This document shows, piece after piece, positions 36,118-41,919 of a stretch of 64,000 nt of DNA. The position numbers and the translations under genes are program-made. The notes beneath the pieces were generated by a model that was not told the DNA's origin, did not search any database, and worked only from the letters and a program-made list of their open reading frames with translations. Origin of the DNA: Candidatus Poseidoniaceae archaeon (GTDB taxonomy: Archaea; Thermoplasmatota; Poseidoniia; Poseidoniales; Poseidoniaceae); contig CALJHE010000014.1 in NCBI GenBank assembly GCA_938075675.1, positions 1 to 64,000 of the forward strand, in the 5' to 3' direction. The stretch's first letter is position 1. Every line of letters begins with the position of its first letter.

Positions 36118-36176
36118 GCGAATCAAACCTATGGCCTTAACCACATCTTGAAAAACAGTTTGTGATAGCGACACAT

Positions 36177-37391
36177 ATGTCAGCATGGGAATCCTCTGTT
36201 CTCGATGCGGGTTCGAATCCTGAATGGAAGTCACTCTTGCCAAAACTTGTAGGGGATTTGGACACATGGAGCGAGAGAATGCAGCCTATTGCTGCTAAGG
36301 TTTCCAACGGAGAACGCCTCACGCTTGCCGATGGTATTGTTCTCTTTGAGCACCCCAACCTTTCTGAGGTTGGGCGACTGGCCAACTGTATCCGTTCCGC
36401 TCGATTTGGCTCTAACGCTTTCTTCAATTCAAATGTGCATGTCAATCAGACGAATATTTGCGTTCTCGCTTGCAAATTTTGTGCTTTCCGACGTTCAAAG
36501 AAAGCGAAGGATGCTTACGCATTGGATATCAATGCATACCTCGAAGACCTCGGCCAATACGCCGAACATGTCGACGAAGTACACTCTGTTGGTGGATTGC
36601 ATCCTGACTGGGGTGTTGAACATTATGCGGAGCTTTTCAAGGCTTCACGTGAACGCTTCCCGCATGTATCCATCAAGGCCTTGACAGCTGTCGAAATAAA
36701 GCACCTTTCCCAACTCTCGAACATGAGTTACAAAGACACACTCCAACGCCTCAGAGATGCGGGCCTTGGTTCGCTCCCAGGAGGGGGAGCAGAAATCCTA
36801 GACGATGGTGTACGCGCGATTATTTGCAACGGAAAAGAAAGTTCATCCGAGTATCTTGAAATCCACAGGACCGCCCACGAACTCGGAATTCCAACCAATT
36901 GTACAATGCTATTTGGAACAATTGAAACTTTAGAACAGCGGTTAATGCACATGATTCAATTACGAGAAGTCAACGATGACACCTCCGGTTTCCAGTGTTT
37001 TGTCCCCTATCCGTTTCTTCCTGACCATACACGGCTTCCTGAAGCCCAACTTGCAACGGGTAGCGAAATTCTACGTACCATCGCCGTTTCCAGACTTATG
37101 CTGGACACAATCCCTCACATCAAAGCCTACAGGATGAACATCGGTGATGAACTCGCTGAGTTAGCCCTCCAATACGGTGCTGACGATATCGATGGGACTG
37201 TTCAGAAAGAATCGATTATGCATTTGGCAGGCTCGACAACTCCACTGGATCACGACCGTATTCGGCTGGCTCGTCTTATCACGGATGCTGGATGTGTACC
37301 TGTTCAAAGAAACACGACTTACGAAAGATTCGAAATCTTCGTTCCGCCGGAGCCAAAACCTCGTAGAGGGTTAAAAATGGCCAGCCCCTGA
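36177..37391 (+). CDS. mqnE: Aminofutalosine synthase MqnE (radical SAM)
   Basis: Radical SAM enzyme of the futalosine route to menaquinone; it adds 3-[(1-carboxyvinyl)oxy]benzoate to SAM to make aminofutalosine. The CxxxCxxC cluster site is CVLACKFCAF, followed by family-specific VGGLHPDWGVEHY and SIKALTAVEI. CofH and MqnC are close relatives, but GGLHPD and the following mqnA favour MqnE. ATG 36177 was chosen over GTG 36162. It ends nine bases before mqnA, which is preceded by GAGGAAG. Confidence 0.87.
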   Translation: MSAWESSVLDAGSNPEWKSLLPKLVGDLDTWSERMQPIAAKVSNGERLTLADGIVLFEHPNLSEVGRLANCIRSARFGSNAFFNSNVHVNQTNICVLACKFCAFRRSKKAKDAYALDINAYLEDLGQYAEHVDEVHSVGGLHPDWGVEHYAELFKASRERFPHVSIKALTAVEIKHLSQLSNMSYKDTLQRLRDAGLGSLPGGGAEILDDGVRAIICNGKESSSEYLEIHRTAHELGIPTNCTMLFGTIETLEQRLMHMIQLREVNDDTSGFQCFVPYPFLPDHTRLPEAQLATGSEILRTIAVSRLMLDTIPHIKAYRMNIGDELAELALQYGADDIDGTVQKESIMHLAGSTTPLDHDRIRLARLITDAGCVPVQRNTTYERFEIFVPPEPKPRRGLKMASP

Positions 37392-37400
37392 GGAAGAAAG

Positions 37401-38198
37401 ATGGTTAAATCACATTGGATGCAAACGATGGGCAGAGTGGCCTTTCTCAATTGCGACCCACTCTTCTACGGTTTAGAATCTGATTGGAATATTCTTGCTG
37501 CTCCACCTGCATGGCTCACGGGCCATTTACTGCGTAAGGACTGCATTCTTGCACCCATACCGGCGGCGGACTACGCTCGCCATGCCGATGAACTGATTCT
37601 CCTTCCAGACATTGGAATATGCAGCCGAGGTGAAGTTGGTAGTGTTCTTGTCTTCGGAAATAAGCCTCTCGACCAGATGAAGTCGATTGCTTTACCAACC
37701 GATTCTGCGACTTCAGTTCAATTGTTGAAATATCTCTTGAAAAAGCGTAACTTAGAACCAGAGTTTGTTCTTATGGGCCCAGACCTCGAGGGAATGCTGA
37801 AACAATGCGAAGGGGCGCTCCTCATTGGTGACCGCGCTCTTGAAGGTGCCAAACTAGCTCCTGACACAGTACAGCTCGATTTAGGTCAAGACTGGTTGAA
37901 GTTCACTCAGAAACCTATGGTGTTTGGAGTTTTTGCTGCTCGGAAAGATACGCCAATTGAATCCCTCCGTCACGCACACGCCGTTCTCAACGACAATTTA
38001 CATCATTTTGAACAAAGTGCTGAACAACGTCGGAGTGTAATTGAATGGGCAATGACTCACTCTCACCTCGACTATGAGCGATTGGACCGGTACTTTGGAG
38101 AGGTGTTCAATCGCATTGACAGTGAAAATCTTTCTGGGCTCAATGAATTCCTCACGGAGGCCTGTGGCCTAGAGTCTGGCGCCGAATTCGCCTGGTGA
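37401..38198 (+). CDS. mqnA: Chorismate dehydratase MqnA
   Basis: 265-residue periplasmic-binding-protein-fold enzyme that dehydrates chorismate to 3-enolpyruvoyl-benzoate, the substrate of MqnE encoded just upstream. The N-terminal GRVAFLNCDPLFYGL, the APIPAADYARH segment and LIGDRALEG match the family. MqnA and MqnD share a fold, but the other paralogue at 40541 carries the MqnD marks. The gene ends directly at the stop of the convergent WD40 gene. Confidence 0.88.
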   Translation: MVKSHWMQTMGRVAFLNCDPLFYGLESDWNILAAPPAWLTGHLLRKDCILAPIPAADYARHADELILLPDIGICSRGEVGSVLVFGNKPLDQMKSIALPTDSATSVQLLKYLLKKRNLEPEFVLMGPDLEGMLKQCEGALLIGDRALEGAKLAPDTVQLDLGQDWLKFTQKPMVFGVFAARKDTPIESLRHAHAVLNDNLHHFEQSAEQRRSVIEWAMTHSHLDYERLDRYFGEVFNRIDSENLSGLNEFLTEACGLESGAEFAW

Positions 38199-40427
38199 TT
38201 AATCTTCATCATCGTGAACGTCATTCTTTCCTGAATAGGCGACCACTCTTCTGGTCTTGACCTTATTAGGGGTTGGTGTTTCTTTAACCACCTTTTTCTT
38301 TGAAGCAGTTTTCCTCTTCGGAGGATTATCAGATGTTATCACACTGCTGTCCAGACGTCTACGCTTGACCTTCGTAATCGGGCCATCCCTCGTTGCGACT
38401 TTTTGAACAGCCTTTCTACGGGCTTTGACAGGTTTGGGCTCAGACTTTTCGCGTGGTTCCACAGCAGGCGCGTGAGCCTCCTCATTGTCGTTCTCTTCAC
38501 TGTTATCGTTCTCTGTATGGCGGGTCTCATCAAGCCCTTCGTCGTAATCCGATTCATCCTGGCTGCGTTCATCGAACTCTACTTCATCCTCGCCGTCCAT
38601 GTCGAGTTCTAAATCCATTGCATTCTTGGTTCGCATGAGAACCACAAAGGCTCCTGCAAGCAAGAGAATTACCGGGGCGAAGAAAATTGGATTGTCGATA
38701 AATCCTTCAATCACTTTGGTACCAATACTCGGTTCTTCTTTGACCACTTCCTCCAATGTGACGCTCAATTCACCTTCGCTTACCCACCAAGGAGAATAAT
38801 AGAATTCCTTCGATGCAGAAGAATATGCAGTCACATCGATTGGGTGGAGTTCAGCATGTTGAGCCAATGAGGCATCTGTCGCCTTAGGCTGAGATCTAAT
38901 GTTAAACTCAAGCGGGTATGTTACCGTATCACTGAGGTTAAAGAAAATCGTGTAGGTAATCGCAATGTGAGTTTTTTGGTCACTAACTGCAGTGAACGCC
39001 ATTCCTCGTTCAACGCTGCATTCAACACGTGCATCAGTAAGTTGACCCGATGACATTTGTATGGCGTCCTTCCATGAACTCGTGTAGTGGTTTTGATTCA
39101 TATTTTTACATGTTGCATCGGCAAAGAGTTCAGCTTCTTCTTCGCTCAACTGCGTATCCGTGACAATTGAACGCCGAGACAGGTTACGCAATGCTGAGGA
39201 GAGTTGAATGTCGAGGGTAAATGTGTCATCAAGGACCAATCCAGTAGAATTAAACTGAAGCGAAACCTTCCGTATGGTCTCTACATCTGGATTTTTGCTG
39301 CATGCTTGAGTGAACGTTTCACAATTGTTATCTCGGCTGTCGGGGATTGCATCACCGTCATCATCATCATCGAACTCATCCGGAAGTTCATCTCCGTCCA
39401 AATCAGCACCGCTTTCACCCTGGCCCACCGCTGCATTCGGGGCGCCATAAACGGCAATGTGCCCTGTATCAGTCGCTACATAGGCCATCTGGCGTGTGCC
39501 AAATTGGTTCTCAACGATATCAAAATTCATGGCCTGGTGGGCGAGATAAATCGATACTACATCGTTGAGTGATGTGGAATCCACAGTGAGAATTCGCTGT
39601 GAACTACCAGTTTCGAGGAGGTGGATTTGGTTGTTGTTTACTGACCATAGTAACTGCGAACCCCCCTCGAAATTTCTTTCTGCTATTGCTCCACCCGAAA
39701 ATGACCAGAGTGCCATTTGCCCTTGTTCGGTGAATACAGCAAGTTGTTCGTCGACTGAATCAAAGTCACAACTTAGAACTTTTGAGTCGTGATCCCATTG
39801 CTTGCCAGTTGGATTTCCATCCAGCGTCCACATGACGACACGACCACTTTCATCGCCGGTCAAAATGTAACTCCCGAGAGATGAAAAGTCCACGCATGTC
39901 ACCTTCGTATTGTGCTCTCCGTTAAGCGTTCGTTCGATTTGCATATCTGATGTGCGCAGGAGGTTAATTCCATTGTTGGCGTTCGGGACAGCGATTAGAT
40001 TTCCATCAGGCGACCAATCGATACTCTCTGAACGCGAATTGGAACCACTCTTTTTCGATGTCAGCGTCATCGATTCGACATCAATAATTTGGATTGTATC
40101 GGTATCTGTAACGGAGCCGGACTTTGCAAATGCAATCTTAGAGCCATCAGGGGAGAACTTGATATCCAAAACATCGCCGTCAACGACAAAGGATTCAATC
40201 AGTTCTAAGTTTGTCCTGTTATGAATTGCTACCAATCCATCATACCCACTGGCAATATAGGTTTCATCAGGGTTGATGTCGACCGTACGCGATTCCTCAG
40301 CGTTATCTGTAACAGTCACATCGACATAGGCAATATCTGAATATTGACCTGCTACCATTGACACTGAGCTCGCTAAGAACACTGCTAAGCAAAGTAGCGT
40401 CTGTATTCTCAATCGTCGAGAGTCCAT
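38199..40427 (-). CDS. Secreted/membrane WD40-repeat protein with Asp-rich calcium-like repeat and charged tail
   Basis: 742 residues. Residues 8-27 form a signal peptide (LLCLAVFLASSVSMVAG); about 50-330 form WD40-like repeats (FSPDGSKIAF, WSPDGNLIAV, VVMWTLDG). Residues 340-366 (DLDGDELPDEFDDDDDGDA) resemble thrombospondin type-3 calcium repeats. A beta-rich region follows with NxS/T sites and cysteines, then a single membrane helix at 581-598 and a ~140-residue tail, first acidic and then Lys/Arg-rich. Predicted topology puts the propeller outside and the tail in the cytoplasm. It lies opposite the menaquinone genes, which gives no clear hint to function. Confidence 0.8.
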   Translation of the reverse strand: MDSRRLRIQTLLCLAVFLASSVSMVAGQYSDIAYVDVTVTDNAEESRTVDINPDETYIASGYDGLVAIHNRTNLELIESFVVDGDVLDIKFSPDGSKIAFAKSGSVTDTDTIQIIDVESMTLTSKKSGSNSRSESIDWSPDGNLIAVPNANNGINLLRTSDMQIERTLNGEHNTKVTCVDFSSLGSYILTGDESGRVVMWTLDGNPTGKQWDHDSKVLSCDFDSVDEQLAVFTEQGQMALWSFSGGAIAERNFEGGSQLLWSVNNNQIHLLETGSSQRILTVDSTSLNDVVSIYLAHQAMNFDIVENQFGTRQMAYVATDTGHIAVYGAPNAAVGQGESGADLDGDELPDEFDDDDDGDAIPDSRDNNCETFTQACSKNPDVETIRKVSLQFNSTGLVLDDTFTLDIQLSSALRNLSRRSIVTDTQLSEEEAELFADATCKNMNQNHYTSSWKDAIQMSSGQLTDARVECSVERGMAFTAVSDQKTHIAITYTIFFNLSDTVTYPLEFNIRSQPKATDASLAQHAELHPIDVTAYSSASKEFYYSPWWVSEGELSVTLEEVVKEEPSIGTKVIEGFIDNPIFFAPVILLLAGAFVVLMRTKNAMDLELDMDGEDEVEFDERSQDESDYDEGLDETRHTENDNSEENDNEEAHAPAVEPREKSEPKPVKARRKAVQKVATRDGPITKVKRRRLDSSVITSDNPPKRKTASKKKVVKETPTPNKVKTRRVVAYSGKNDVHDDED

Positions 40428-40458
40428 GGCCGTCGTTATCCTCCAGTCCCCTCTAAGG

Positions 40459-40499
40459 TTTGAATACTTCGTATTCGGTGTTTCATTTTTGTATTCAAA
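40459..40499. promoter_or_regulatory. Inverted-repeat operator candidate between WD40 gene and mqnD
   Basis: The divergent region 40428-40540 contains TTTGAATAC at 40459-40467 and its exact reverse complement GTATTCAAA at 40491-40499, with a further GTATTC at 40471-40476 that forms an inner dyad with the left arm. Three related half-sites in 41 bases suggest a regulator-binding site serving one or both genes. No cognate regulator is identified. Confidence 0.4.
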
Positions 40500-40540
40500 T
40501 CATGCGGTTGGTTCATCAAGGTCGCGACGGTGGGAACACC

Positions 40541-41425
40541 ATGGTGGCAGAGTTACCTCTTGATGAAAACGGAAACAAGATAGTGCGGATTGGCCATTCA
40601 CCAGACCCTGATGACGCCTTCATGTTTCACGCCATGACGACTGGGGCTTTTCCAACACCAGGCTACAACTTTGTTCACGAATTACAGGACATTGAAACCC
40701 TCAACCACAGAGCAATGAACTGTGAATTGGAAGTATCTGCGGTCTCCATTCACGCTTTCCCTGAGATTTCCAACGACTATGCACTCATGAACTGTGGTGC
40801 ATCTATGGGCGAAGGATACGGCCCCATGGTCGTCTCTCTTGCTGGCGCATCTACTGAAGAAGTTCGGTCCTCGACCATCGCAGTACCTGGTTTGAAAACC
40901 AGTGCATACCTTGGTCTTCGACTTGCATGGGGCGACTGCGATATTGCTGTTGTACCGTTTGACGAGATTATCCCACGTGTTCTCGATGGTACATACAAGA
41001 GCGGACTTATAATTCACGAAGGTCAACTTACCTATGTCGATCACAACCTAAAAGTCCATGTTGACCTTGGCGTGTGGTGGAATGAACGTACCGATGGATG
41101 GCCTATGCCATTGGGTGGAAATGTCGTACGACGTGATCTCGGGCAGCAAGTGATGGAAGACATAACCAAATACACCAAGATGAGCATTGAATTTGCTCTT
41201 CAATCTCCAGATGAGGCACTTGAGTTTGCTAAAAAGTGGGGACGGGGTATTGACGATGATACTAACCGCGAATTCGTTGGCATGTATGTGAACGAGCGCA
41301 CCATTGACTACGAGAGCGAAGGCAGAGCCTCCGTACGCCAATTCATCCGTGAAGGACAAGAAATCGGAATGATTCAGATGGATTTTGATACTTCCACTAT
41401 GGCCTTCATTGGCGCAAACGAGTGA
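40541..41425 (+). CDS. mqnD: 1,4-dihydroxy-6-naphthoate synthase MqnD
   Basis: 294-residue enzyme converting the cyclic dehypoxanthine futalosine to 1,4-dihydroxy-6-naphthoate in menaquinone synthesis. The start region IGHSPDPDDAFMFHAM is the MqnD hallmark, with DIETLNHRA and ASMGEGYGPMVV also conserved. ATG 40541 follows GGTGGGA; the frame to 40460 runs through the operator region and is not used. The intermediate steps (futalosine hydrolase MqnB or equivalent, and MqnC) are not encoded in the window. The DOHH-like gene begins six bases after its stop. Confidence 0.88.
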   Translation: MVAELPLDENGNKIVRIGHSPDPDDAFMFHAMTTGAFPTPGYNFVHELQDIETLNHRAMNCELEVSAVSIHAFPEISNDYALMNCGASMGEGYGPMVVSLAGASTEEVRSSTIAVPGLKTSAYLGLRLAWGDCDIAVVPFDEIIPRVLDGTYKSGLIIHEGQLTYVDHNLKVHVDLGVWWNERTDGWPMPLGGNVVRRDLGQQVMEDITKYTKMSIEFALQSPDEALEFAKKWGRGIDDDTNREFVGMYVNERTIDYESEGRASVRQFIREGQEIGMIQMDFDTSTMAFIGANE

Positions 41426-41430
41426 TCGAA

Positions 41431-41919
41431 ATGGCCGTCGAAAAGCGTATGCCGGGCGTTAGCCAATACGGCTCAGTTGACCCCGCACCTGCAGAATTCA
41501 AAGGCGATGTCACCTCTTGGGCCGAAACACTGTGCGACGAATCCCTTCCCATGTTTCAAAGAATGCGGAGCGTTTTTTCTTTGAGAAACCTCGGAACGGA
41601 CAATGCTTGTTTGGCCCTTTGCGCCGGGTTTTCAGCATCAAGTGCACTACTACGCCACGAATTGGCATATGTTTTGGGGCAAATGCAGAACGATACAGCA
41701 CTCCCTGCTCTTATTGAACGATTGAGTGATGCGGAAGAACATATCATGGTTCGACATGAAGCTGCCGAGGCTCTTGGCGCTATCGGCAACTTAGAAGCAA
41801 AACCTGTTCTCGAAGAATTTCTACATGATGAAAATCCAGAAGTTGCAGAATCTTGTGAAGTCGCTCTCGACCTATTGAATTGGTGCGCCACCAGTGAATG
41901 GGAAGAAGCAGAATGGTGA
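41431..41919 (+). CDS. Half-length deoxyhypusine hydroxylase-like HEAT-repeat protein
   Basis: 162-residue HEAT-repeat protein. RHELAYVLGQMQ (His76-Glu77) and VRHEAAEALGAIG (His109-Glu110) match the paired HE motifs of eukaryotic deoxyhypusine hydroxylase (DOHH), including the 33-residue spacing; the preceding MRSVFSLRNLG and the closing VAESCEVALDLLNW also fit. DOHH, the di-iron enzyme completing hypusine on IF5A, has two such halves in about 300 residues with four HE motifs; this protein has one half and could act as a homodimer (inference). Other metal-binding or phycobilin-lyase-like HEAT proteins are the alternative. It is coupled to mqnD: the GTG at 41422 overlaps that stop, but ATG 41431 looks better. 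Confidence 0.72.
   Translation: MAVEKRMPGVSQYGSVDPAPAEFKGDVTSWAETLCDESLPMFQRMRSVFSLRNLGTDNACLALCAGFSASSALLRHELAYVLGQMQNDTALPALIERLSDAEEHIMVRHEAAEALGAIGNLEAKPVLEEFLHDENPEVAESCEVALDLLNWCATSEWEEAEW

Follow-up and report, generated by a model that had tools for sequence, protein, structure and literature searches.

A conserved single-half homologue of deoxyhypusine hydroxylase in Poseidoniales that is tied to aIF5A in one family

The gene and its resemblance to DOHH

The window analysed here is the whole stretch of 64,000 nucleotides from a Candidatus Poseidoniaceae archaeon. On its forward strand it contains an open frame, at positions 41431-41919, whose product of 162 amino acids resembles one half of eukaryotic deoxyhypusine hydroxylase (DOHH). 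The features of the locus are as follows.

40544..41425, + strand: mqnD-like gene (PF02621), directly upstream, with which the half gene forms a conserved pair in Poseidoniales; a neighbour, not judged to be part of the hydroxylase
41431..41919, + strand: gene for the single-half DOHH-like protein, 162 aa, with a disordered SVDPAP leader and then about four HEAT hairpins; contains H76-E77 and H109-E110
41473..41490, + strand: codons of the leader segment S15-V-D-P-A-P20, which matches the linker joining the human DOHH halves (from the PDB alignment and conservation)
41656..41661, + strand: codons of H76-E77, the counterpart of human H56-E57 and H207-E208; present in 47 of 47 sequences
41755..41760, + strand: codons of H109-E110, the counterpart of human H89-E90 and H240-E241; present in 47 of 47 sequences

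As mqnD ends at 41425, a gap of five bases separates it from the half gene, for which a possible alternative GTG start lies 9 bases upstream of 41431. The G+C content of the half gene (0.491) is close to that of the window (0.479). An AlphaFold model of the protein (7 sequences, mean pLDDT 86.6, pTM 0.80) has a disordered leader of about 22 residues followed by about four helical hairpins. The genome from which the window comes has a single copy of the gene, and a search for a second DOHH half elsewhere in that genome found none.

A preliminary description of this DNA had noted two HE motifs 33 residues apart in HEAT repeats, with surroundings resembling one half of eukaryotic DOHH. Both observations were borne out: the motifs lie in the segments RHELAYVLGQMQ (H76-E77) and VRHEAAEALGAIG (H109-E110) with that spacing, and human DOHH was the best match, over both of its halves, in a search of 177,635 distinct PDB sequences (E=3.1e-65, 222.5 bits). 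The human chain was matched twice, at residues 11-138 (102.7 bits) and at residues 144-285 (120 bits), the second alignment taking in the SVDPAP linker between the human halves. The next match, a synthetic HEAT protein, had an E value of 1.2e-32, which leaves DOHH ahead by about 33 orders of magnitude. A Foldseek search with the AlphaFold model also placed human DOHH (4d4z) first (E=4.9e-10, TM 0.81 by query length, 47% identity), followed by artificial alphaReps at 5e-6, with the phycobilin lyase CpcE at rank 36. The Pfam models HEAT_PBS and HEAT_2 matched the protein, as expected for the fold, and it shares HEAT_PBS repeats and weak profile matches with the phycobilin lyases CpcE/F and NblB. 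Its scores, however, fell far under the NCBIfam cut-offs for those families (NblB, 29.5 bits against 300; CpcE, 22 against 330). The comparison with generic HEAT and phycobilin-lyase proteins that the preliminary description had proposed therefore came out well in favour of DOHH, by sequence and by predicted fold.

The catalytic residues are conserved as well. Passages of PMC9117371 describe the irons of human DOHH as anchored by H56, H89, E90, H207, H240, and E241, and the deoxyhypusine side chain as bound by E57, E90, E208, E241, G65, and G214. The equivalents of these iron and substrate residues in the archaeal protein are H76, E77, G83, H109, and E110; for the N-half glycine, given in that paper as G65, our alignment indicates position 63. 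All five are invariant in an alignment of 47 sequences, namely 36 from Poseidoniales (drawn from 68 non-fragment proteins, some being duplicates from one genome), nine from other Thermoplasmatota, and the two human halves. The iron-anchoring HE set is likewise complete, with both of the two motifs expected per half. Mean identity to the human N and C halves was 45.0% and 48.5% for the Poseidoniales proteins and 43.5% and 48.4% for the nine other Thermoplasmatota proteins, and the human N half was 40% identical to the human C half, with one eukaryote sampled.

In sum, the protein has in common with human DOHH its HEAT fold, the 33-residue HE spacing, the substrate glycine, the SVDPAP segment, an identity of 39-54% to either half across the 45 archaeal sequences, and co-occurrence with deoxyhypusine synthase (DHS) and IF5A. 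It differs in being one half, of about 160 amino acids with two HE motifs and encoded by one gene, that would need pairing to build the same site, and in being absent from many relatives. Because a canonical DOHH chain has four HE motifs and eight hairpins, and this one has two motifs and four hairpins in 162 amino acids, we file it as a single-half variant rather than as canonical DOHH. The bacterial EF-P hydroxylase EpmC/YfcM has a fold that is not known to be related to that of DOHH. It resembles DOHH in hydroxylating the modified lysine of a homologous factor, according to passages of PMC6105217.

Distribution, loss, and neighbourhood of the half gene

The half gene was matched in 63 of 99 relatives (a count that includes one remnant, two frameshifted copies, and one copy cut by a contig end) and in 224 of the 339 genomes of the class. 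Across the phylum, a search at E<=1e-6 gave matches in 119 of 389 Thermoplasmatota genomes. Among these, nine genomes outside the class matched at E<1e-39, and twelve others had weaker matches (1e-12 or worse) that fell mostly in long HEAT frames. Read from the DNA, the nine distant loci have one half each, and DPAP is kept in the leader of seven of the nine proteins. Altogether the gene is present in eight families of the phylum. A single-protein query against genome contigs, which reaches close relatives only, returned six loci of the Poseidoniales type, on contigs from MAGs named Poseidoniales, Poseidoniaceae, or Euryarchaeota; plasmids and phages gave no match, and among viral contigs no match was confirmed.

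Some copies call for comment. G003, counted among the 63 matches, is the remnant. In G001 and G007 (L074 and L075) the gene is frameshifted at about residue 67-69, by decay or assembly error. These two genomes belong to the sole gene-positive clade that already has threonine at position 32 of aIF5A (see below); no aIF5A was found for either one. The assemblies G044, G025, and G074 have two copies of the half gene each, and in G044 and G025 the second copy resembles the locus of another species, so that these are likely mixed bins.

In the Poseidoniales loci with adjoining sequence the half gene directly follows mqnD in both of the families that we designate f1 and f2. The order in f1 is mqnD, half gene, small gene, priS; in f2 the mqnD-half gene pair has the opposite orientation with respect to priS and points towards mqnA and a radical SAM gene. 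None of the first 99 genomes has the half gene without an mqnD match, 17 are without both, and 19 have mqnD only. In 18 of these 19, mqnD is followed by the next gene and the half gene is missing in place; at the 19th locus the contig breaks off. Many relatives thus lack the half gene but retain mqnD. Traces of the gene persist at three of the 18 loss loci (G028, G063, and G081). Among 39 carriers in a held-out set (see below), one (G122) has no mqnD match. The nine distant Thermoplasmatota loci show no mqnD, priS, DHS, or aIF5A gene within 4.7-12.5 kb, and twenty neighbouring frames at seven of the distant homologues gave no pathway clue.

The window itself contains, at 36162-41425, a cluster of an MqnE/CofH-type radical SAM gene, mqnA, and mqnD, with a gene for a WD40 protein between them, that points to a futalosine-type menaquinone pathway in Poseidoniales.

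Correlated change in aIF5A

Had the half protein a role in modifying aIF5A, the genome should also encode DHS and a modifiable aIF5A, and the preliminary description had called for a check of both. Both are present. The DHS of the window's genome, encoded on contig C5, scores above the NCBIfam cut-off and its aIF5A, encoded on contig C24, above that of TIGR00037, with the loop KPGKHGSAK (..SISKSKPGKHGSAKARLE..), in which Lys37, the target lysine by alignment with known IF5A, is kept. PF01287 missed this aIF5A, as it did that of a control, Haloferax volcanii.

Three side observations concern these proteins. A second DHS-like protein (L003, contig C11:30786-31688) is nearest to a model of the homospermidine-synthase type and lies under every NCBIfam cut-off; speY clusters are reported in marine group II/III in passages of PMC10407285. 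At position 32 of solved aIF5A proteins, the 1bkb and 8put sequences have lysine and 1eif and 1iz6 have valine. One assembly, G047, contains two different aIF5A genes (L129 and L134), one of which is either a paralogue or derives from another species binned with it.

We compared aIF5A between genomes with and without the half gene (f1 and f2 are families, g1, g5, g14, and g19 are genera, and numbering refers to aIF5A positions). It was matched in 79 of the 99 first-set genomes, and 78 sequences from 77 genomes were read; the partial sequences of G004 and G059 were left out and the second copy of G047 was set aside. The counts leave out genomes without an mqnD match, in which loss and assembly gap are indistinguishable, G054 and G198, in which mqnD runs off the contig, and the two genomes with a frameshifted copy, G001 and G007. 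No aIF5A could be read for the losses G011, G038, and G066 in the first set and G141, G151, G224, G254, and G315 in the held-out set.

In genus g1 of family f1, all 11 genomes with a confirmed loss have T32, I45, and S61 around Lys37. Among the 25 carriers of the genus I45 and S61 do not occur, and T32 occurs in four, all in one clade. The losses do not form one clade: parsimony placed six changes on a tree of MqnD and PriS and five on each of two others, an aIF5A tree from which the three codons had been removed and a DHS tree of 27 genomes. Tests of dependent versus independent evolution gave p=4e-7, 2e-6, and 1e-5 on the MqnD+PriS, aIF5A, and DHS trees for positions 45 and 61, and p=2e-6, 3e-5, and 4e-4 for position 32, values that are to be multiplied by about 126 because the sites were found by scanning that number of columns. 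Control columns in f1 gave p=0.028 (MqnD 60) and p=0.26 (MqnD 105). In six pairs of relatives, which like the sites were picked after inspection of the alignment and of which G015/G018 are not strict sisters, the three aIF5A columns differed alike in all six. Any other of the 887 columns of aIF5A, MqnD, PriS, and the small protein did so in at most three, a figure reached by two MqnD columns. Raw association, with kinship ignored, was p=1.7e-9 for the best column of aIF5A, 6.6e-4 for MqnD, 2.8e-3 for PriS, and 3.4e-3 for the WD40 protein. When f2 is included, giving 62 tips and 16 losses, 11 of those losses have T32 and S61. DHS was also considered as a co-evolving partner and rejected, its best raw p being 0.012 (339 columns, 27 genomes, 7 losses), which is no signal.

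The aIF5A genes of genomes without the half gene are sometimes mutually closest in nucleotides. The aIF5A tree suggests some exchange of alleles, and the independent events may be fewer than six; from inspection of that tree we accordingly count at least four, not six, events in g1. Two further events, in genera g14 and g19, were counted by genus and not on a tree.

The association was then confronted with a held-out set of 80 hand-picked genomes, the prediction having been fixed before their aIF5A was read. The set comprises 39 carriers (30 of f1 and nine of f2) and as non-matches 24 handles between G122 and G232 (22 of f1 and two of f2) plus 17 of 31 later f2 genomes; it excludes G099-G121, among them G121, an f1 genome without a match. 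Of 63 aIF5A proteins matched, 61 were read, the partial ones of G194 and G221 being left out. In f1 the T32/I45/S61 triple appeared in three of six confirmed losses (G130, G146, and G191) and in none of 27 carriers, three of which (G154-G156) belong to g1. The other three losses, G140, G192, and G229, keep K32. Clear fragments of the half gene remain in G140 and a weak fragment (E=0.044) in G229; G192, which shares its genus with G191, has none. Singly, S61 occurs in nine, I45 in two, and T32 in one of the 27 carriers, so only the combination, mainly T32, is tied to loss. For f1 as a whole, first and held-out sets combined, the triple is found in 14 of 17 losses versus 0 of 52 carriers.

Family f2 gave a different picture. 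T32 was seen in no f2 genome read, including all eight confirmed losses; the losses G063, G068, G076, G081, and G303 keep an aIF5A loop of the carrier type. G231 and G232 combine S61 with K32, and in g5 P61 occurs in members both with and without the half gene. As a universal mark of loss the three sites therefore failed, S61 and I45 on their own being unspecific outside g1 and f2 showing no link. We read the change in aIF5A after loss as a lineage-specific compensation; dismissing the link as a coincidence confined to f1 would require several parallel events. In genus g5, genomes without a half-gene match (L169, L170, L172, and L231-L233; one confirmed loss, G078) have an altered aIF5A loop, TKRKPGKHGAAK, and the carriers G288, G291, and G292 have the loop SKSKPGKHGGAK, possibly a second, different co-change.

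Function and origin of the half protein

The protein is a conserved single-half homologue of DOHH that is tied to aIF5A by independent evidence in one family. Its homology to both DOHH halves, the invariance of its catalytic residues, the presence of DHS and aIF5A, and the aIF5A correlation in one family support the reading in which it hydroxylates the deoxyhypusine of aIF5A as a homodimer with a di-iron centre. To this reading we assign a probability of about 0.77, with the homodimer, the di-iron centre, the O2 chemistry, and the product all inferred. In one family the gene's loss goes along with change in aIF5A, which points to aIF5A as the substrate, and since that change lies near the modified lysine, the protein is probably a missing hypusine enzyme of archaea, built from paired identical halves. 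Human DOHH is a symmetrical dyad of HEAT repeats (as stated in passages of PMC11203672), and the archaeal chain aligns over each half of it, which would make a homodimer the simplest route to the same site.

In the mechanism that we propose, one chain, with four HEAT hairpins and two HE motifs, would provide half of a di-iron site, and two identical chains would pair as the halves of eukaryotic DOHH do, gathering four histidines and the glutamates around two irons. DHS would make deoxyhypusine on Lys37 of aIF5A, and the dimer would hydroxylate it using O2. Poseidoniales have an aerobic surface-ocean lifestyle, which O2-dependent hydroxylation would suit. In lineages that have lost the gene, modification of aIF5A would stop at deoxyhypusine, and the changes at positions 32, 45, and 61 may adjust the loop.

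As of 2016 and 2018 archaea were stated to have no known DOHH homologue, while hypusine was described in Sulfolobus and only deoxyhypusine in Haloferax (passages of PMC5178350 and PMC6105217). The preliminary description had also noted that some archaea have hypusine and that no archaeal DOHH is accepted. Among the matches listed in a search of open-access literature on DOHH in archaea, Euryarchaeota, Thermoplasmatota, and Marine Group II, there was no report of the half protein.

How the half arose is a more tentative matter. We consider it possible, at somewhat short of even odds, that the single half represents a surviving relative of the pre-duplication form, acting as a homodimer and as an archaeal hydroxylase reported missing, and that eukaryotic DOHH arose by tandem duplication and fusion with the SVDPAP leader kept as the linker. 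That the archaeal halves are nearer to each human half (means of 43.5-48.5%) than those are to each other (40%, in one eukaryote) suggests such an ancestral status. The opposite course, in which the C-terminal half of a eukaryotic DOHH was transferred to archaea and went on to function alone as an enzyme, seems unlikely to us. It would account for the retained linker, which in the human chain lies just before the C half, and for the slightly better match to that half (120 versus 102.7 bits; 48% versus 45%). A descendant of the C half should, however, sit much closer to C, whereas the archaeal half is nearly equidistant from the two, its identity to either exceeds that between them, and the gene is spread over eight families of the phylum.

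Other accounts concern the activity of the protein rather than its ancestry. One is that this HEAT protein survives as a relic of the enzyme fold and, without being catalytic, binds aIF5A or the loop that is modified: the co-evolution shows only a functional link to aIF5A, and proteins of the HEAT family mainly mediate protein contacts (passages of PMC9040561). We regard this as improbable, since none of the 45 archaeal sequences departs from the HE residues or the substrate glycine, which is hard to explain without metal chemistry. A hydroxylase of aIF5A that is active as a monomer with a mononuclear iron site, or one that pairs with an unrelated subunit, would fit a chain that holds only two HE motifs, a homodimer that is itself inferred, and a genome without a second copy. 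In view of the symmetrical dyad of human DOHH and of the alignment over each of its halves, we hold it to be no less improbable.

That the protein serves the futalosine route to menaquinone, perhaps as a hydroxylase or a scaffold working alongside MqnD, is suggested by the position of the half gene directly behind mqnD in both families, even through the inversion of the pair, and by the first 99 genomes, where every half gene comes with an mqnD match. No futalosine step is known to require a HEAT di-iron enzyme. We rejected this role as very improbable: the losses spare mqnD, which is present in the 18 of 19 mqnD-only genomes that lost the half gene at its place; the carrier G122 (one of 39 held-out) and the nine other Thermoplasmatota, the latter within 4.7-12.5 kb, have the half gene without that linkage; and the correlated change sits in aIF5A, not MqnD. 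Finally, a generic HEAT or phycobilin-lyase-like protein that resembles DOHH by chance is hardly credible, for although Pfam returns HEAT_PBS and HEAT_2 and the NblB and CpcE models match weakly, DOHH leads in the PDB and fold searches, the linker is common to both, and the catalytic set is invariant.

The half gene thus provides a concrete candidate for an archaeal DOHH, in Poseidoniales, which are abundant marine archaea, and in nine other Thermoplasmatota genomes. The phylum search covered Thermoplasmatota, and the hypusine of Sulfolobus is left unexplained by this gene. With this candidate three questions become testable: which enzyme hydroxylates aIF5A in these archaea, how an eight-repeat di-iron oxygenase arose from a half, and why the hydroxyl group is dispensable and which aIF5A residues compensate. 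If the homodimeric hydroxylase reading is true, the repeated losses in marine archaea, with compensation in aIF5A, would amount to a natural experiment on the role of the hydroxyl group.
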